The notes under the pieces are model-generated. The model saw only the letters and a list, made by a program, of their open reading frames with translations. It was not told the DNA's origin and did no database searches. From positions 1 through 39,771 of the IMG/VR virus record IMGVR_UViG_3300034107_001095: DNA of 39,771 bases, one strand, 5' to 3'. Source of the stretch: a virus. This document shows, piece by piece, positions 3,041 through 28,196 of the stretch. Position numbers and translations under genes: made by a program. The first letter of the stretch is position 1; every line of letters begins with the position of its first letter.

Positions 3041-3793
3041 TCAATACTTAGGAGGCTTTAGACCCATCGCAGAATACAACTCAAGCATGTTATTTAAAGC
3101 CTTTATTTCAGCAGCAGGGATAACCTTGTCTTTATAATACTGCCTACCACTAAACCTAATTTTAGTACTCTTTGCCTGCGCTATTTTCAAAAGATTAGAG
3201 TAAATATCCTCATTGACAGTTATCGTACACGATTCCCAAATCATACCATCTCCATTGTCCGTACTCATCTTGATGGGTACAATTTCAAATACTTCTTCAT
3301 CGGCTTTTACCATGTATTTTTGAATAAAAAGCCAATCGTCAGCATAATACTGTATTTTTAAAAACATCGAAGCCCCTCCTTTATTATCTTCAACAATCCT
3401 TAAATAGAAGCCGTTTCGATTAACATACTTTGGTGAAGTAATGTCCTCATATTGTGTAATACCGGTCATTTCATCGGTCTCTTTTCTGATTTTACGCATC
3501 AATTTTGCCACCTTATCTTTTTTTCTCAAATCACTGATGGAATCCAAGACACCCGATAATCGGCTAATTTCAGCATCCTTTTCTAAACTTGGAGATCCAG
3601 AAATTGCAGAGTCTAGTTTGGCCTTTGCGCCCTCTATATCCCCTTTTTCAAATAAGACTTTTGAGGCAGCTGCCATCCCTGCATAATCGGTTTGTTGACC
3701 TAAACCATGAAACTTTAAAGCCTCCTCAGAGGGAGGCGCCCCACTACACGACATGAACCAGGTTGTGAGTGATATTAACAAAAAGTGTTTCAT
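3041..3793 (-). CDS. Predicted lipoprotein in the lysogeny operon
   Basis: A 250-residue protein starting with a short hydrophobic leader (MKHFLLISLTTWFMSC) and a Cys at residue 16 followed by SGAPPSEE. This is a plausible but imperfect lipobox, so it is likely exported and lipidated. The body has a helical, charged region around residues 40-105 (AKAKLDSAIS, KLMRKIRKETDE) and then a beta-rich part (YLRIVEDNKGGASMFLKIQYYADDW) with no family I recognise. Its ATG lies 1 nt beyond the repressor stop, so the two genes are translationally close and should be co-transcribed in the prophage. That position is typical of lysogenic-conversion genes such as superinfection-exclusion lipoproteins; this role is inferred. 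The gene is AT-rich compared with the structural region. Confidence 0.7.
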   Translation of the reverse strand: MKHFLLISLTTWFMSCSGAPPSEEALKFHGLGQQTDYAGMAAASKVLFEKGDIEGAKAKLDSAISGSPSLEKDAEISRLSGVLDSISDLRKKDKVAKLMRKIRKETDEMTGITQYEDITSPKYVNRNGFYLRIVEDNKGGASMFLKIQYYADDWLFIQKYMVKADEEVFEIVPIKMSTDNGDGMIWESCTITVNEDIYSNLLKIAQAKSTKIRFSGRQYYKDKVIPAAEIKALNNMLELYSAMGLKPPKY

Positions 3794-16439: not shown

Positions 16440-16640
16440 ATGTTCAAAAACCTAACCGCAGGGGCCACGCTCAGTGAGCTCACATTTCCGTATGCCGTTC
16501 GTGATAGCATTGTCATCATTGGCGGCGATACTACCAACCCATCCCGCACCTGGCAGCTCTACTTCGAGTGCCATGATGTGGTACGGGTCACACACTCTGC
16601 CACTATGATTGGTCAGCGTTTCTGGCTAAAGCGAGAATAG
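16440..16640 (+). CDS. Small hypothetical protein in the tail operon
   Basis: A 66-residue protein (MFKNLTAGATLSELTFPYAV...), beta-rich with no recognised domain. It is 12 nt behind the hub-like gene, has an A-rich leader (CACCACAAAAT), and is the last gene before the terminator at 16675. It may be a small tail protein. Confidence 0.6.
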   Translation: MFKNLTAGATLSELTFPYAVRDSIVIIGGDTTNPSRTWQLYFECHDVVRVTHSATMIGQRFWLKRE

Positions 16641-18461: not shown

Positions 18462-18812
18462 ATGCTTCCTGAATTAAAACTTCCGACTGATGCCACCAGA
18501 CCAATTCTCCACGGAGACACCTGGCATGGCGTAGGCTTCAAGATGGATCAGGATGCAGTGGACATTGATCTCACCGGCTGCACGATCCGTATCAAATTCA
18601 AAAGCAGAAATGAGACATTCACCCTGGCCACAGGTGGCAACGGCATTACACTGACCACGCCTACACAAGGCGAGTTTGTTTTTGATGAGATCCAGCAGTT
18701 GGACTATGCGCCTGGGGTATATACCGGAGATTTGGAGATTACCTATCCAACAGGCCGGATCAAGACTTATATCCAGATAGCGCTCACGATTTCAGACGAC
18801 ATTACGAAATGA
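18462..18812 (+). CDS. Baseplate-type Ig-like protein (BppU N-terminal-like)
   Basis: A 116-residue all-beta protein. The pattern DTWHGVGFKM, DLTGCTIRIKFKS, ITLTTPTQGEFVFDE, GVYTGDLEITYPTGRIKTY recalls the BppU N-terminal domain found at the base of receptor-binding complexes of siphoviruses. It would anchor the following fibre proteins to the tail tip. It overlaps the next gene by 4 nt and precedes the large fibre by two genes, which fits that role. The family match is from pattern only. Confidence 0.6.
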   Translation: MLPELKLPTDATRPILHGDTWHGVGFKMDQDAVDIDLTGCTIRIKFKSRNETFTLATGGNGITLTTPTQGEFVFDEIQQLDYAPGVYTGDLEITYPTGRIKTYIQIALTISDDITK

Positions 18813-19081
18813 CGACCACCATTGAAGTCACTATACTTGAACCGAATGTGACAATTGGCAGTGCGCCAATTGAAAACATTGTGACCATTGTCGTCAACGA
18901 AGCAGGCTCAATCAATACCAGCATTTTCGCCGGATTGATGCAATACTACAATGAAAATCTGTTGCCCTTCCTAACCAACGAAGAAGCATTCAACGAGCTT
19001 GGATCCGGCAAAGAATATATCCTGGCGCAAGGAAGTCCGGAGGGACAACAAGGCGCGAAAATGATCACATACACACCGTAA
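18809..19081 (+). CDS. Small hypothetical protein before the fibre gene
   Basis: A 90-residue protein ([20 protein letters not shown]...) with a beta-rich N-terminal half and a helical part near the end ([16 protein letters not shown]). The start overlaps the BppU-like stop (ATGA) and the stop is 2 nt before the fibre start, so it is translated in the same run. It may be an adaptor between baseplate and fibre. Confidence 0.6.
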
Positions 19082-19083
19082 GA

Positions 19084-22000
19084 ATGAAAAAGCTACTCAT
19101 CCTCGTATCTATATGCTTCCTTTCAGGAGTTTCGATAGCACAAACAAACCTGTTTGCGCCACCCTGGTGCATCACAAACGGGCCTCCTGCCTTTAATCCC
19201 GGAGCAAAAGGCTGCCGGGTAACGCTGGACACATCAACCATGCATTATTGGGTTTGGCAAATTGGCACTACCTGGGTGAAGCAGGAAAAATCCTTTGACC
19301 AGATAGTGGGCTGCTCTGCACCATTATATACGCCTACTAAATGGCAGAGCGATAGAGTGATCAACGCATGCAGCCCTGTTCCAGAAATGTATAAGCACCT
19401 GGGCGCTGGAGTTTGGGATTGTATGAACTGTACTGCATCGGGCAGCACCAATTTATCATGGTCAGAAGTAAGCAGCACACTATACAAGCTAAATTCAAGC
19501 ACCGGAAATGATGTTTTGGTACGCGAAGGCACCGGCGCAACAGCGGCCTTGTCTGGCGATACATTAACCATTTCAGCATCAGGCGGCGGCGGCGGCACAG
19601 TAACCACGGATGCAACGCTTTCTGGCGATGGATCAGGCGGCACACCCTTGAAAATTGCCCAACAGTCCGCAACAAGCGGGCAGGTTTTGAAATGGAACGG
19701 AACAACCTGGGCACCCGCAGCTGATGGAGGAACGACCTATACGGCGGGATCTGGCATTGACGTGACGGGAACGGTAATCAGTAATACGGGGGACCTATCT
19801 ACCACCAACGAACTTCAAAATGTTGATGTGTTCAACATCGTATCCAATCAGCTAAGGTTATCGTTAAGTGATGACGGGGTAGCAATAAACACGGTAAGCC
19901 TTGCGCCTTACTTAGATAATACAGACAGCCAAAACCTAAGCCTATCCGGTCAAGCCCTAAGTATTTCAGGCGGCACAGGCGCAACCCTTCCAGTGGTAGG
20001 GGCAACAGCAGCCGACTTTGACCTTGCAATCGGGGTGCTTTCTTTGGATTATACCAACGCTCAAAAAGCGACAGGCTCAGTGCCGGGATTTTTAACGGCA
20101 GCCGATTGGACAACGTTTAACGGCAAGCAAGCCGCCGGGAGTTACATTACGGCCCTAACAGGCGACGTAACAGCAATCGGGCCAGGCAGTGCAGCGGCAA
20201 CGGTGACAAAGATTAACGGCACAAGCCTTGCAGGTCTTGGTACTGGTATCCTGAAAAACACAACAGGCACAGGCGTTCCAAGTATTGCGGTGGCGGGCGA
20301 TTTCCCGACGTTGAACCAAAACACCCTGGGCAATGCAGGAACGGCGACAGCATTACAGACAGGACGCACCATCGCAATGACGGGGGATGTTACATATACG
20401 TCCCCATCATTCGACGGAACTGGCAACGTGACAGCGGCGGCAACCATCGGGACGGGGGTAGTTGGCCCAACGCAGTTGGCAAGCACAGCGGTAGCGGCGG
20501 GTAGCTATACCCGTGCGGACATTACGGTGGATGCAGACGGGCGAATCACGGCGGCGGCAAATGGATCAGGCGGCGGAGGCGGTAGCGGTACAGTTACAAG
20601 CGTATCCGTGGTAAGTGCAAATGGATTTGCGGGAACCGTAGCAACACCAAACACAACCCCTGACATCACGCTAAGCACAACAATAACGGGCCTTATAAAG
20701 GGCGACGGAACTTCTATAAGTGCTGCCACAGCCGGAACCGACTACTTAACACCAACGGGGTCAGCCGCGGGGCTTACATCATTTCCGACCCTAAACCAAA
20801 ATACCACAGGCAGCGCAGCCACGCTAACAACGCCCCGGGCGATCTACGGTAACAACTTTAATGGCTCGGCAGCGCTTACCCAGGTGATCGGATCGGAATT
20901 TGGCGGCACTGGAAACGGATTCACAGCTTTTAGCGGCCCTACAACAGCCGCAAAGACCTTTACTTTGCCGGATGCAAGTGCTACAATCCTAACAAGCAAT
21001 GCAGCCGTAACCGTACCGCAAGGCGGTACGGGTCGAACAACTAGTACAACGGCTTACGGACTAATTGCAGCGGGAACGACCGCAACAGGTGCACATCAAA
21101 CCTTGCCAGCGGGCGCGACTACCGCCATACTCGTAGGGGGTGGGGCATCTGCATTACCAGCATGGACAACGGCCACAGGGTCGGGCGCACCGGTTCGCGC
21201 TACTTCTCCGACCCTTACAACCCCTGCACTTGGAACACCATCGGCAGCGGTACTTACAAATGCAACAGGGCTACCGTTAAGCACAGGCGTAACAGGTAAT
21301 TTGCCTGTAGCAAATCTCAATTCAGGTACCAGCGCATCGGCTTCTACATTTTGGCGGGGAGATGGTAGCTGGGCTACACCGGGCGCCCCTAGCAACGTCA
21401 TTTTGGACGGCGGAAACACGACGGGCGCTACCCTTGTGGTCGGCACAAATGACGCGCAAAGGCTTGATTTGGAGGCAAACGGGGCGGTTGCTTTGACGGT
21501 AGCGGACGGTGGTAATATTGGAATTGGAACTACTACTCCAACAACGGGAAAGCTGGAGGTTGTTGCGGGAGCTTTGGCAGATACCAAGAACGCTTTACGG
21601 GTTACGGCAACCGCGCCCACGGTGATTACAGCGACTAATAATGCGATTGATTATCAAATAACGGGAGCTGGAAGCTCATCATTTGCTCAAAGGGCACTTA
21701 ACTTAAATTTTGCAGCAGGTTACACAGGGAGCAATTCAACGATTTCAGCGCTTATATTTAATTCAAATGCGGGTACTGGATCACAAATGAACACCACAAC
21801 GATAGGCAACCAGGGGATAAGCGCTGTGGCAAACGCCACAACTACAGGGCTAAATGCAGGGGGGGTATATGCCGCATCAAATGCGGATAAAAATGTAGCA
21901 TTGCTGGGGAAAACATTTGTATCTAAAAATGGGGCCCTAAATGTAGCGATTGCTGGGTTCGCGCTAAATACAGGCACAACGCCAATACAAATAGGCGGTT

Positions 22001-22479
22001 ATTTTGGGCTACAAAACACAGACCCAACGTTCGAATCATCGGCATTAATCGCAGATAACGGAAGTCAAACAAGCCCGATATTTTTAGCCCGTGACAACGG
22101 CACCACAGTCTTCACCATACAAGACGGCGGCAACACCAAAATAAACGGCACGGCCAACAGAGCAACCACCGAAGGCACAGCCCAATTAGTAATCTTCAAC
22201 GGCACAGCTCCAGTCGGCACACTCACCAACGGCGTATCCCTTTACAGCGCATCCGGTGAACTTCGTGTAATGGATGCGGCGGGTAACAGCACCCTGCTTT
22301 CACCACACGACCACGAAACAAACGAGTGGGTTTATTACTCCAAAAATACGGTAACGGGTAAGGTTCTGCGCATCGACATGGAGCGCATGCTAAAGGCTAT
22401 TGACGAAAAATTGGGCGGTGGGTTTATCCACGAATACACCGAAGAAATACAAGGCAGCGACATTCAAAAAAAACAATAA
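19084..22479 (+). CDS. Large tail-fibre / adhesin protein with Sec signal peptide
   Basis: A 1131-residue repetitive protein. Residues 1-20 form a clear signal peptide ([20 protein letters not shown]). Then come low-complexity Gly/Ser linkers (near 166 and 495) and long stretches of Thr/Ala/Gly-rich repeats. The stretch near 690-750 ([36 protein letters not shown]) is a widespread tail-fibre repeat. Near 775 is [17 protein letters not shown], also found in the gene at 23115. The C-terminus ([28 protein letters not shown]) looks like a trimerisation end. Fibre content says receptor binding; the signal peptide says export, which is unusual for a virion part. It follows the baseplate-type genes without gap. 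Confidence 0.85.
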
Positions 22480-22480
22480 C

Positions 22481-23089
22481 ATGAAAAACACACTTTTACT
22501 TTTTATCCTATGCAGCCTATCTGCACAGGCGCAAACGATCACCAAAAACTTTGTACTTGCTCCTGACGGGATCAATTACTTTGAGGTGGTTCGTGAGACC
22601 AATGAGATCACGGGGACATACAGCGAGTCAGCGACTATTATTGGCAAGGTCGCAGATATTGCGTCGCTTGAGGCCGACAAGGTAGAGGCGCAGGTGAAAG
22701 TATTGTCAGAGCAAGCGTTTGCGGTATCAAGAACCATAGGCGTACTTAATAGGATTGCGTCTGTAGACGCATCTATTTTCACGCTTACGGCACTCAGCCC
22801 CCTCAAGACCATACAAGCAAAATATGCGTCAAGCCTAACGGCCAACGGCTGGGTTATTGATCAAGGCGCTGGGGCCGGATTTGTGCCCCTTGTATTCACC
22901 ATTAATGCATCGAACAACCTGCGCTACTCCATTGCGGGGGCGGCAACGAAAGCGGCGACCATCTATGGCGACGTTATTACTTTATCCGGCTACCCATCCA
23001 CCGGGATAAATACAGATTTCTATCTGTCAGAAAACGGACGAAACTATTTCAGCTTGCCCAATCGATCGGTCGTAATTAAGAAGCCGTAA
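22481..23089 (+). CDS. Exported protein of the fibre cluster
   Basis: A 202-residue protein from ATG 22481 with a signal peptide (MKNTLLLFILCSLSAQAQT, cut after AQA). A heptad-like segment follows (ATIIGKVADIASLEADKVEA), then a beta-rich C-terminus (YLSENGRNYFSLPNRSVVIKK). No family recognised. It begins 1 nt after the large fibre gene and 25 nt before the next fibre. Its place and coiled segment suggest a fibre accessory or chaperone-like part; the export signal would place it in the periplasm or outer membrane. Confidence 0.7.
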   Translation: MKNTLLLFILCSLSAQAQTITKNFVLAPDGINYFEVVRETNEITGTYSESATIIGKVADIASLEADKVEAQVKVLSEQAFAVSRTIGVLNRIASVDASIFTLTALSPLKTIQAKYASSLTANGWVIDQGAGAGFVPLVFTINASNNLRYSIAGAATKAATIYGDVITLSGYPSTGINTDFYLSENGRNYFSLPNRSVVIKKP

Positions 23090-23114
23090 TCCATATTTCA
23101 ACTCACACCACACC

Positions 23115-24584
23115 ATGAAAAAAATATTGGTATTCATTGCCGCCATCTTGATAATAGCTGGTCAGGGTTACGCGCAAACATCTGACACTAAGGACATCCA
23201 AATTGCAAAGCAAAAGCTTCGTGTTGGATTAGACACCGGCAAGTTCTTTACATCCACCACAGAGTCGATCAATAGCGGCAGCACCCACCGCCAACTGGCC
23301 ACTGCCAAAGCCATTTGGGATGCCATCGTAGCCGGTGGCGGTGGCGGGGGTGGGCACATCATACTGGACGATGATACCGTGATGGACCAACGCTCTGCAC
23401 TTAATTTCATAACTACGCCGACCATATCTATTACCGCTTCGGATGATTTGGCGAACGATGAGACCGAGATTCGCTTCATCGTGCCTAATGACGGGATCGG
23501 CGGGAATCAAATTGCCGCAGATGCAGTAGGCTCCTCTGAGATTACGGATGGATCTGTAGCATTGGCGGATATGGCCAACGTTGCGACAGGCACAGTTTTT
23601 TATAGAAAAACGGCGCTAACCGGGGCTCCAGAGGTTCAAACCCTCGCAACCCTAAAAAACGACCTGGGGATTACCGGCCAAGAAATCTTCAACGGCGGCA
23701 ACACCACCGGGGCTACGTTGATAATCGGGACCAATGACGCACAAAGCCTAATTTTCGAGACCAACAATACCGCCAGACTAACGCTCGCATCCGCTTCACT
23801 GACAACGGGCGGGAATTACACAATAGGAAATAGCGCAAATACCATTGCATTAAGTTCAACAGCGGCTTCCAACTCTGCAATAGGATTGAACGCAAGCAGT
23901 GTGTCGGGCAGCATAAAGGTGGGAGCATCCACCGCCTATACCCATACAACCGGAACCAAAACTAAAATGAACTTTAGCGGCGAGTCATATACAGCCGCAT
24001 CTGGTTCGGGGGTGTTTAAGGGCTTGTTATTCAATGACGCCTACGACCTGACAGGGACAGCTAACGGCTTGCAAAGCTCAATCGACATTAATCCCACGCT
24101 GACCAACCTCGTTAACGCCACTTATGTGGCGGTTCATATACAACCAGACAACGCCTCCGCTATAGGCGTAAATCAGACGGGTGTTAATACCCGTAATATT
24201 TTTCGCGGGAAAACGGCCATTGGATCTACAAGCGCACCCACGGAGCAATTGGAGGTCACGGGCAATGCGCGTGTTGCCGGCAAACTAGCATCTACTTCAA
24301 ATGCCACTACATTGGGTGCATCAGCTACAACGCTTGCGATCACGAGGAATGTGGTCAAACTAACGGGGAATGGGACCAATGTGCTCGCAACAATTACAGG
24401 GGGCATAGCTGGGCAAATTCTGACCATTATTTTCGTTGATGCGCTGGTAACCATTACAGACACAGGCACAGGCGCGGCAGATACCGTCAATCTATCCGCA
24501 CCATTTACCTCTACAGCAAACGATACGATTACGCTGGTATATGATGGAACCTCTTGGTTTGAAATTGTGCGCTCTGTAAACTAA
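23115..24584 (+). CDS. Second fibre-like protein with Sec signal peptide
   Basis: A 489-residue protein with signal peptide MKKILVFIAAILIIAGQGYAQ. It has a Gly linker near residue 75 (AGGGGGGGH), a fibre-type stretch (EITDGSVALADMANVATGT) and the module [17 protein letters not shown] near residue 200, shared with the large fibre at 19084. The later PTEQLEVTGNARVAGKL is another common fibre motif. The C-terminus (TANDTITLVYDGTSWFEIV) is a small beta domain seen at the end of many such fibres. It is probably a paralogue or alternative adhesin. Confidence 0.8.
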   Translation: MKKILVFIAAILIIAGQGYAQTSDTKDIQIAKQKLRVGLDTGKFFTSTTESINSGSTHRQLATAKAIWDAIVAGGGGGGGHIILDDDTVMDQRSALNFITTPTISITASDDLANDETEIRFIVPNDGIGGNQIAADAVGSSEITDGSVALADMANVATGTVFYRKTALTGAPEVQTLATLKNDLGITGQEIFNGGNTTGATLIIGTNDAQSLIFETNNTARLTLASASLTTGGNYTIGNSANTIALSSTAASNSAIGLNASSVSGSIKVGASTAYTHTTGTKTKMNFSGESYTAASGSGVFKGLLFNDAYDLTGTANGLQSSIDINPTLTNLVNATYVAVHIQPDNASAIGVNQTGVNTRNIFRGKTAIGSTSAPTEQLEVTGNARVAGKLASTSNATTLGASATTLAITRNVVKLTGNGTNVLATITGGIAGQILTIIFVDALVTITDTGTGAADTVNLSAPFTSTANDTITLVYDGTSWFEIVRSVN

Positions 24585-24794: not shown

Positions 24795-24847
24795 CTGTTT
24801 TTGTGTCCTATAAGCCCACAAGAACCACCTCCAAATTTGCCACCAAT

Positions 24848-25993
24848 ATGGCGAACGAAAACTTACACAATACAAGATGGCTACGCAGCCGCCCGACACA
24901 GGGCGGATTCACCGCAGACAAGATCGATGCCGAGGCTGGTATCATCCGGGATGTGGTGATGGTGCAGGAGGGCCCTGCCAAAGGGCATGGGGTGCATCTC
25001 GAATCGGAGTTCATTGATTCGATTGTGGAGTACGATCAGAAGGTGTTTTCCAATCGTGGCCTAAAAGCCAGATTCGGCCATCCTTCCGCAAGCAGCGAGA
25101 CCATGGGTACGCAGTTGGGGATTTTCAAAAACTTCCGCAAGCGCACGGAGAATGGGTTGAGCGAATCCATTGCCGATCTTCATCTGCTCGAAGCAGCGAA
25201 TGAAAGCCCAACGCATCCAGGCATGCGAAACTGGGTTTTGAAAATGGCCCAGGAGAATCCGGAGTTCATCATGAGCTCCATTGTATTTGAAGCAAGCGGA
25301 TATTATCAGCGCAATCCGAATGGTGAAAAACACCCGCTAGAACTAAACCATGATTTTGATGGTGGAGACTTTACCAACTTCAGGGAAGAGTATGGAAATA
25401 TCTTCGTCGAGTTTCACCAGCATCTATACACAGACTTAGTGGAAGCCGGAGCGGCTACAGAATCGCTGTTCTCCAACCAGGTGAACCCCCACCTATTCGT
25501 CGCACAGGCAGATCAGTTCCTGTACGATCATCCAGAACTCAAGAAATTCATCCAATCTAATCCGGATAAGGTTACTGCCTTTTTCGGTAGCCTTGGAATA
25601 CAACTCACGGGTTCTGCAATAGAACCCAAACCCAAACCTAAAACAATGGCATTCAACTTATTTACTTGGCTATCTGGCGAGACGCCAGCCGAAGCCGAAG
25701 ACATTGAAACCATCCGTACCGAACTGACTACCGCTCAGACATCCGTGATGGAGCTCAAGGCCGAAAAATTAACTGCTGAGAATCGCGTAGCCGAACTCAA
25801 GCAAGGCAATGATGCGCTACAATCCGCTCTCGGAGAAATGGAAACTCAGCTTTCAAAAGCTACCGAACGCATTGCTGAACTGGAAGCAAAGCCAGCTGCA
25901 TTGCATACCGGAGGACCAACGGAGGCTTCGATTTCAAGCCCTGAGAAAGGCCAAAGAACCAACGAAGTTTACCAGCGCTACGGCATCAAGTAA
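24848..25993 (+). CDS. Capsid maturation protease fused to scaffold
   Basis: A 381-residue protein from ATG 24848 (a GTG at 24803 would add 15 residues). The N-terminal two thirds show the prohead-protease pattern: a His in LKARFGHPSA (about residue 77) and a Ser in PEFIMSSIVFEASG (about 142), with SIADLHLLEA between, as in serine proteases of phage heads. The last 115 residues are a charged coiled coil (IRTELTTAQTSVMELKAEK, METQLSKATERIAELEAK), typical of a scaffolding region. It should shape the procapsid and then cut head proteins. It is directly followed by the major capsid gene. Confidence 0.82.
   Translation: MANENLHNTRWLRSRPTQGGFTADKIDAEAGIIRDVVMVQEGPAKGHGVHLESEFIDSIVEYDQKVFSNRGLKARFGHPSASSETMGTQLGIFKNFRKRTENGLSESIADLHLLEAANESPTHPGMRNWVLKMAQENPEFIMSSIVFEASGYYQRNPNGEKHPLELNHDFDGGDFTNFREEYGNIFVEFHQHLYTDLVEAGAATESLFSNQVNPHLFVAQADQFLYDHPELKKFIQSNPDKVTAFFGSLGIQLTGSAIEPKPKPKTMAFNLFTWLSGETPAEAEDIETIRTELTTAQTSVMELKAEKLTAENRVAELKQGNDALQSALGEMETQLSKATERIAELEAKPAALHTGGPTEASISSPEKGQRTNEVYQRYGIK
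25646..25993 (+). CDS. Possible nested scaffold protein (internal start)
   Basis: An in-frame ATG at 25646, preceded by an A-rich stretch (CCCAAACCTAAAACA) that looks like a Bacteroidetes ribosome entry site, would yield just the 115-residue C-terminal coiled coil (MAFNLFTWLSGETPAEAED...). In phage lambda the scaffold Nu3 is made the same way inside the protease gene C. This is inferred by analogy. Confidence 0.45.
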   Translation: MAFNLFTWLSGETPAEAEDIETIRTELTTAQTSVMELKAEKLTAENRVAELKQGNDALQSALGEMETQLSKATERIAELEAKPAALHTGGPTEASISSPEKGQRTNEVYQRYGIK

Positions 25994-26044: not shown

Positions 26045-27022
26045 ATGGCAGAAGCAGTAAGCATCCCCAGTGCCGACCTCGTTCAGGAGTTCCTGACAGA
26101 TAAAGGCCAAGAGGTGATCCGCCGGATGTTCATGGACTTCCGTAGCGCACGTATGGTGCGCAAATTCGCCGGGGTGACCGATAAGCTCATCCTTGCTCGT
26201 CAAGACGTAACGACGGCACTCATCAAAGAGTGGAACTCTACGCTCGCCTTCACCAACGACGCCATCGAAGTGACCTCGGTCAACCTCGAAGTGGCTCGCA
26301 TGAAGACCGAACTCAAATTCATCATCGGAGACGACACCCTTCACGCCTACAAAGCCTACCTGAAAGGTGCCGGCCTTGTGAGCGATGATATGGGCCTCGT
26401 GGAGTACCTGCTCCAGGATCCTATTTCGGTGCAGCAGGAGGAACTGGAAAACGCCATGTGGCAAGGCGTAGAGCTTGGTTCTGGTGTTGGCACACGCACG
26501 CTGACAGACCGTATCAATGGCTACCGCGAGATCGCTCGTTTGGCTGGTGTGGCTGGCAATGCTACCGTGGTGGCTACCGGCGCAATCACCTCGGCCAATG
26601 CCGTCGCAAAGGTCGAGGAGGTTTACGCAGCAGCCGACAAGACCATGAAGGATCGTGGCTTCATGATTTTCTGCAGCTACAACCTGTTCGAAAATTATCA
26701 GCTGGACCTGCTCACTAAGCACAGCAATGCCGACATGATGCTCAAGACCGTCACTGGTCAAGGCTACACGCTGGAAGGAATGCCATTGCGTCTTGGCGCA
26801 GGTCGCTCGTTCCTTGTACCTGTGCCTGGCATGGGGGATGATGATGCACTGATCGGAACCCGCCCTGAATTCCTTGCCTACGGATTCGACTATGAATCCG
26901 AGTGGACCGATTGGAAGGTTCAGGAGTACGGCTGGGAAACCTGGGCACTCAACAAGTTCCCTGTAGGCGTACAGATCCTGCTCCAGAAACAAGGATTCCT
27001 GGTTATCAACAACCAACTGTAA
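26045..27022 (+). CDS. Major capsid protein
   Basis: A 325-residue protein in the position and size of an HK97-fold major capsid protein. Its start (MAEAVSIPSADLVQEFL) leads to an N-terminal arm-like helix. The body has a glutamate- and arginine-rich region (ARMKTELKFIIGDDTLHAY) and the C-terminal part (ALIGTRPEFLAYGFDYESEW, NKFPVGVQILLQKQGFL) resembles capsid proteins of Bacteroidetes phages. It follows the protease-scaffold gene by 51 nt with an A-rich leader. A hairpin lies behind it at 27046. Confidence 0.85.
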   Translation: MAEAVSIPSADLVQEFLTDKGQEVIRRMFMDFRSARMVRKFAGVTDKLILARQDVTTALIKEWNSTLAFTNDAIEVTSVNLEVARMKTELKFIIGDDTLHAYKAYLKGAGLVSDDMGLVEYLLQDPISVQQEELENAMWQGVELGSGVGTRTLTDRINGYREIARLAGVAGNATVVATGAITSANAVAKVEEVYAAADKTMKDRGFMIFCSYNLFENYQLDLLTKHSNADMMLKTVTGQGYTLEGMPLRLGAGRSFLVPVPGMGDDDALIGTRPEFLAYGFDYESEWTDWKVQEYGWETWALNKFPVGVQILLQKQGFLVINNQL

Positions 27023-27086: not shown

Positions 27087-28196
27087 ATGGCAGACGAAAA
27101 AGACACCATCATCGCCGACCTTCAGGCTCGTATCTCGGCACTGGAGGAGCTGGCAGTGGCCTCTCCGGAGGGTTCCGGGCAGGCCATCACCACCGCCAAG
27201 AAAAAAGCCGTTCAGCTGAGCGGCGAGACCTTCTCGGTAGAAGGTAAAAAATATCAGGCTGCTTACCCACAATGGCAAGACGGGGGCAAAACCGTAACAG
27301 AAGAAAACCTGTTGGCTGACAAGACCATGCAAAAGGCCCTGGTATCCAGCGGCTCGAAGTTGGTCAAACTGGCCGGCATGTTGCTCCTGTTTCTCTTCGC
27401 CTTCTCCTTCACGGCAAAAGCAGGCATCGTAATCAATCCTTACGCAGTCGAAGTATACACCCCGACGAAAAAGGATTTCTTCGCCCTGCAGGATCTGATG
27501 ATCATCTACCGTGCATCTACGGACGCCTTTGAGGTCCAGACTGCATCCACCCGGACGAAGGTCTGGGGCGGGGATGTAGATTCAGTAGTCATTGCCGGAG
27601 CATCTACCACCGCGCTCAAGCTGGCGTACCTCCGAACCCTGATGCTGGAGACCAATACAACGGGCGGATACAGAGTATTTTTAGGCCGGAATAACCTGGA
27701 CTTCAACTACAACTCATCCACCAAGCGCCTGGACCTGAAATCTGGAAGCAATAAGCAACCGCTTTGGTTTGGAAGTATTGACTCATTACTCAGCGGCCCC
27801 ACGGGGACATCTGCCAAACTGGCCTATATCAGGCTGGTGAATCGCTGGCAAGCGCAGGACTGCCTACCTACCACCAGCGTAGCCACTATTGCAGCAGGCG
27901 CTGCGGCTGGATCCAGCCCTACCGTCACCGTCACAGGCGACGCTTTCTCCGGCAGCATCAGTGTTACCACAGGCGCATCCGGAGCAACTACCGGAACGCT
28001 GGCCACGGTGACAACCAAGATTACGGCTCCTACCGGAACGAGGGTTGTGCTTTGGCCTACGGGTGACAACTCTATTCTGCACAACGTAAGGGTAAAAGCA
28101 AGCGGGACAACGACTACGATCGTGCTCGCAGTCCCGGCAACGGCATTGGCCAGTGCCACGGCCTATACCTGGGATTACATGGTGGTGCCCTACTAA
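27087..28196 (+). CDS. Capsid-cluster protein with internal signal-like segment (possible fusion)
   Basis: A 369-residue protein. Residues 1-97 look like a small head-associated protein on their own: coiled coil (TIIADLQARISALEELA), then FSVEGKKYQAAYPQWQ and a helical end. At residue 98 an in-frame Met starts MLLLFLFAFSFTAKAGIV, a textbook signal peptide, followed by a beta-rich domain and a Ser/Thr/Gly-rich C-terminal region (SGSISVTTGASGATTGTLAT) like fibre or decoration proteins. It could be a fusion by loss of a stop codon, or the ATG at 27378 could be used as a second start. A terminator follows at 28215. Head decoration is the likeliest role. Confidence 0.65.
   Translation: MADEKDTIIADLQARISALEELAVASPEGSGQAITTAKKKAVQLSGETFSVEGKKYQAAYPQWQDGGKTVTEENLLADKTMQKALVSSGSKLVKLAGMLLLFLFAFSFTAKAGIVINPYAVEVYTPTKKDFFALQDLMIIYRASTDAFEVQTASTRTKVWGGDVDSVVIAGASTTALKLAYLRTLMLETNTTGGYRVFLGRNNLDFNYNSSTKRLDLKSGSNKQPLWFGSIDSLLSGPTGTSAKLAYIRLVNRWQAQDCLPTTSVATIAAGAAAGSSPTVTVTGDAFSGSISVTTGASGATTGTLATVTTKITAPTGTRVVLWPTGDNSILHNVRVKASGTTTTIVLAVPATALASATAYTWDYMVVPY

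Follow-up and report, generated by a model that had tools for sequence, protein, structure and literature searches.

Why do fibre genes of a tailed phage encode signal peptides? In known tailed phages the virion fibres are put together in the cytoplasm, with N-termini that normally dock to the tail, and the tailed virion as a whole is assumed to be completed there. The window, a whole 39,771-base IMG/VR contig, raises this question with three consecutive genes, here named P1, P2 and P3. An earlier note on this DNA had described full signal peptides ending in an A-Q site in the products that start at 19084, 22481 and 23115. The ORFs, their starts and the signal peptides are as it described them, and two of the three products have fibre repeats, as it had also said (P1 and P3 do, P2 does not).

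19084-22479, + strand: P1 ORF.
19084..19140, + strand: predicted P1 Sec/SPI leader, 19 residues, cut before Q20.
22481-23089, + strand: P2 ORF, 202 aa, its ATG one base past the P1 stop.
22481..22531, + strand: predicted P2 Sec/SPI leader MKNTLLLFILCSLSAQA, cut before Q18, then QTITK.
23115-24584, + strand: P3 ORF.
23115..23174, + strand: predicted P3 Sec/SPI leader MKKILVFIAAILIIAGQGYA, cut before Q21, then QTSDT.

Each leader has a lysine in the n-region, a hydrophobic h-region and a small-x-A/Q boundary, which is the Bacteroidetes Q-rule site (PMC5837995). With a home-made Sec rule rather than SignalP, strict Sec/SPI leaders with Gln at +1 are called in 3 of the 41 window genes; these are P1–P3 only, and all are adjacent. 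The rule makes 9 calls in 20,500 whole-protein shuffles, and 905 calls in 60,000 when just the leaders' own first 25 residues are shuffled. In all three proteins a basic n-region and a hydrophobic h-region precede a small -1 residue and a +1 Gln, as in a Q-rule SPI substrate; their N-termini are predicted Bacteroidetes substrates of this type, and cleavage followed by pyroglutamate formation would be expected of them. Lipoprotein anchoring was considered and rejected, as +1 is Gln in all three and there is no lipobox Cys. T9SS cargo status was rejected as well, since the C-terminal sorting domain has no NCBIfam match in these proteins. Neither a T9SS domain, nor a lipobox, nor an anchor was found in P1–P3.

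The three genes sit in a structural block, with a BppU_N-like gene upstream and head genes downstream:

18462..18812, + strand: leaderless BppU_N-like baseplate/fibre adaptor (PF10651, phrog_1084), which opens the fibre cluster.
18809..19081, + strand: leaderless 90-aa protein in the interval between adaptor and P1, defined by ORF and position, no family match.
24803..25993, + strand: start of the head-gene block, putative protease/scaffold, downstream edge of the fibre slot by gene order in Ingeline and L002.
26045-27022: MCP, after the 24803 gene.

The adaptor product matches phrog_1084 with E=6e-12 and PF10651 with E=0.0019 (18.4 bits, under the 23.1 cut-off of Pfam). The putative function of the 24803 gene comes from its position, with no family match of weight. 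Besides a primase, a tape measure and a DUF6712 gene, the window has an HTH repressor and a tyrosine integrase. Its TerL is similar to the TerL proteins of Polaribacter phage Leef_1, of Bacteroides phage BT-TP2 and of Flavobacterium and Cellulophaga phages, and also matches two Microcystis phage records. Since the matches are mainly to Polaribacter, Flavobacterium, Cellulophaga and Bacteroides phages, the host can be predicted with good confidence to belong to the Bacteroidota. With the MCP and the 24803 product as queries, the searches returned one near relative only (L002/L084) or nothing, and they revealed no host genome that carries a close prophage.

The same pattern, which the earlier note had proposed looking for in related phages, occurs as runs of leader genes in Cellulophaga phages and viral contigs. 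Ingeline has four consecutive Q-rule genes, with replication genes on one side and the protease/capsid block on the other. The cassette has 3 genes in Nekkels and 5 in phi46:3, and Q-rule leader genes are also present in phi19:3 and phi13:2. Consecutive leader-bearing fibre genes thereby span cultivated Cellulophaga siphovirus and podovirus families. Among uncultivated contigs, L006 encodes a tape-measure homologue and a tail protein followed by three leader genes, and L057, L063 and L043 have such runs too. In another contig (L030, 7842-13625), a four-gene leader run has two A/D boundaries, no clear A/Q and one ambiguous call; the Asp at +1 perhaps points to a host of another phylum than Bacteroidota. 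Judged by their predicted leaders, these fibre genes are a recurring cassette and no single oddity. The cassette is lineage-dependent, since the fibre-region genes examined in eight Bacteroidota phages (Leef, 6H, laban6-1, BT-TP2, immuto, Panino, phi12:1 and phi17:2) have no leaders. A BppU_N-anchored control of 25 other contigs contained no run of leader-bearing fibre-size genes, the leader genes called there including small ones of up to 243 aa in five contigs; the runs are therefore not general to phages with this adaptor.

The proteins phi19:1 gp103, phi18:3 gp087, phi10:1 gp094 and Ingeline 33 have a conserved leader and short mature stub in front of swapped distal parts, a pattern that a docking stub and a receptor-binding end would produce. 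Ingeline 33 has the same C-terminal domain as the leaderless phi12:1 gp50 and phi17:2 gp050. A near-identical leader-bearing family, of the phi19:1 gp102 type, is seen in L088, L091, L093, L095 and L174, in siphovirus and podovirus families. As this family is common to siphoviruses and podoviruses on Cellulophaga, the cassette appears to move between unrelated virions.

Three of these phages have virion annotations. In their GenBank records, phi19:1 gp101-104, phi10:1 gp091-094 and phi18:3 gp085-087 are annotated by the depositors as "structural protein" with experimental MS/MS proteomics. A leader is called on 11/11 MS/MS-supported fibre-slot proteins and on 0/27 other MS/MS-supported virion proteins (Fisher p 8e-10, descriptive only, as the genes are linked and homologous). 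Gln is at +1 in 10 of the 11, the exception being phi19:1 gp104 with a weaker non-Gln call. By record annotation, virion presence is shown for the slot equivalents in these phages; for P1–P3 it is a prediction. The earlier note had called the export of fibres paradoxical. The puzzle is real, but the eleven MS/MS proteins contradict the rule that a virion fibre has no leader.

We think it fairly likely that P1–P3 are a variable receptor-binding cassette whose products start as Sec/SPI preproteins, mature beyond the cytoplasm and dock on virions late. From the leader onward, we infer the path from cleavage to docking, as well as the same behaviour in the window phage as in its relatives. The leaders would take P1–P3 across the inner membrane by Sec, SPI would cut before Q, and a host cyclase would turn the new N-terminal Gln into pyroglutamate. 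The mature proteins would then fold outside the cytoplasm, P1 perhaps with disulfides, and the fibres would dock at or after lysis onto virions built in the cytoplasm. More tentatively, there could be a last extracytoplasmic assembly step in tailed phages: Sec export, maturation by periplasmic signal peptidase and glutaminyl cyclase, and attachment only once the envelope opens, with one cassette for host-sharing phages of different morphology. Of the three options that the earlier note had offered, the best fit is attachment to virions in the periplasm or beyond it.

The strongest rival places the action of P1–P3 on or around the infected cell, at its surface or after release, with the virion MS/MS signal coming from co-purified secreted protein. 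The proteins might block receptors (for superinfection exclusion, or so that progeny are kept off debris), digest capsule or bring about lysogenic conversion. Leaders are enough for export, and lambda Lom is a signal-peptide outer-membrane protein from a fibre region (PMC12309495). Annotated pectate lyases in the Ingeline, Nekkels and phi10:1 cassettes, the frequency of Q-rule leaders with fibre-like repeats in Bacteroidota chromosomes and the integrase of the window phage also fit this explanation. However, all eleven fibre-slot leader proteins of three phages are MS/MS-supported in virions. Two small leader-bearing non-fibre proteins (phi10:1 23531-23845 and phi19:1 22972-23331) carry no such flag, and this speaks against a bulk carry-over of exported proteins. 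P1–P3 also have none of the anchoring or sorting features sought above. No integrase is annotated in phi10:1, phi19:1 or Nekkels, which makes lysogenic conversion unlikely as a general purpose; display by the lysogen, another option of the earlier note, thus fails as a general explanation. Overall, we consider an action on or around the cell unlikely.

It is less probable still that the hydrophobic N-terminus only looks like a leader and stays uncleaved, as a peptide by which a cytoplasmically built fibre docks or seeds its trimer. Such a peptide would agree with the cytoplasmic assembly and tail-docking N-termini of known fibres, but it needs no Gln at the exact +1 position found in ten of the eleven MS/MS proteins. 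The nearest relative, L002, whose MCP is 95% identical, also argues against it. The leader of its P3 orthologue, MKFKFFLFLFFAFTWAAQA, is 7/20 identical to that of P3, with indels, whereas directly past the predicted cut the first 19 residues are identical, as are 22 of the first 25. In this single pair, a leader that has diverged yet is kept before a near-identical mature N-terminus looks functionally constrained. The N-termini of leaderless homologues are quite different. L002 carries leaderless genes at the P1 and P2 positions, so the same slot can take genes of either kind. The earlier note had named relatives without leaders as evidence against export: L002 keeps the leader on P3 but lacks it at the other two positions.

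The mature proteins are made up as follows:

19141..22479, + strand: mature P1, fibre-like, Q20 to the end including the stop, with repeats as in many phage fibres.
19168..19431, + strand: P1 residues 29-116, which hold all 6 Cys of the mature protein.
21991..22476, + strand: P1 C-terminal module, residues 970-1131, 63% identity with the end of a leaderless L015 protein.
22532..23089, + strand: mature P2, 185 aa, no detectable relatives.
23175..24584, + strand: mature P3, fibre-like, including the stop, with an orthologue in L002.
24297..24581, + strand: P3 C-terminal module, residues 395-489, in phage contigs only (L002, L003 and a few others).

P1 and P3 have fibre repeats and exchangeable C-terminal modules in common with other phage fibres; L015, whose leaderless protein ends like P1, is a phage contig. 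P1–P3 have no family match in Pfam, PHROGs or NCBIfam, and are therefore called fibre-like and placed in no named family. P2 has no fibre repeats, and no collection searched held a relative of it, so that there are no grounds to call it a fibre. Comparison with solved structures gave weak matches only, and the AlphaFold models (pLDDT 40 for the P1 Cys-rich domain, 35 for P3) are too poor to use. The six-Cys cluster of mature P1 would suit an oxidising compartment, and is not conserved in L006. This contig alone matches the P1 N-terminal domain (20-135), which found no relative as a lone query. The terminal modules of both proteins (P1 20-135 and 970-1131, P3 21-95 and 395-489) have matches in phage contigs only, a result that is weaker for P3 because the chromosomal loci were collected by P1 patterns only. 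The middle repeats are common to secreted Bacteroidota chromosomal proteins: the best matches of P1 135-310 are chromosomal (51%), and 52 of the 78 non-truncated chromosomal matches to P1/P3 repeats, mostly from Bacteroidota, have Q-rule leaders. These chromosomal matches would fit a capture of host secreted proteins, with leaders that are dispensable relics of host surface-protein genes, but this remaining option of the earlier note is weakened by the phage-only terminal modules, by leader features that outlast divergence between P3 and L002, and by the recurrence of the pattern in unrelated phage families, and we find it very doubtful.

As a separate observation, the Bacteroidota chromosomes among our loci (L097-L170) encode many large secreted Q-rule proteins with fibre repeats, often starting AQ..PQGFNYQAV.

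Export followed by late docking, the reading that we prefer, can be set beside known systems. In phi10:1, phi19:1 and phi18:3 (Assiduviridae, Pachyviridae), as in the window phage, consecutive Q-rule genes follow tail genes and encode fibre-like proteins with variable distal parts; these phages differ by their virion MS/MS support. P1–P3 and the Cellulophaga proteins are not direct sequence orthologues, and the link between them is slot, leader and general make-up. Ingeline (Duneviridae) shares the run of Q-rule genes before the protease/capsid block and a related TerL, but has a pectate lyase and other fibre sequences. The classic fibres or tailspikes phi12:1 gp50 and phi17:2 gp050 have their C-terminal domain in common with leader-bearing Ingeline and phi46:3 proteins, and no leader. 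The coat proteins of filamentous phages are virion proteins made as Sec preproteins, but their assembly occurs during extrusion through the membrane, in an unrelated virion. Lambda Lom, whose gene lies between the tail spike and tail fibre genes (PMC12309495), is likewise a signal-peptide protein, but it is a beta-barrel in the host outer membrane and no fibre. The Nixviridae phages of Porphyromonas gingivalis also have genes with Q-rule leaders; for these five genes, noted as of unknown function, a role in altering the outer membrane of the host was proposed, and they are not described as fibres (PMC10367356).

The earlier note had seen here a candidate for an undescribed system. Signal peptides on single genes had been noted before, in one sentence on the lyase proteins of Ingeline and Nekkels (PMC8776804) and in the P. 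gingivalis phages (PMC10367356), but no description of the cassette was found. In a literature search that left many subscription papers outside its reach, nothing described Sec-exported tailed-phage fibres or a leader-bearing fibre cassette, or tied such a cassette to virion MS/MS annotation. Phage lyases are described as usually located on tails (PMC8776804), and phage DGR target proteins are reported without signal peptides (PMC6199706). If fibres are exported first, this changes how they fold and when they are attached, as well as readsorption to debris and the chemistry of the N-terminus (pyroglutamate), and engineered fibres of Bacteroidota phages would have to retain the leader. In uncharacterised phages of Bacteroidota, a Q-rule leader in the fibre slot would also be a simple rule by which to recognise receptor-binding genes.

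Three other places in the window have leader-like or lipoprotein-like features. The gene at 3041-3793 (- strand) has a lipoprotein-like leader, MKHFLLISLTTWFMSC/SGAPP, adjoins the HTH repressor and integrase, and is a candidate lysogenic-conversion gene. The single frame at 27087-28196 begins like a head protein and then has an internal leader-like stretch, MLLLFLFAFSFTAKA/GIVINPYAVEVY; it is possibly a fusion or has a second start. Finally, the 66-aa ORF at 16440-16640 resembles an internally deleted form of the lipoprotein-like gene at 3778-4164 of L002 (MFKNLSRLLLLLIVILMLLPFFACNKD...): its MFKNL runs straight into TAGATLSELTFPYA, and the leader and lipobox are gone.
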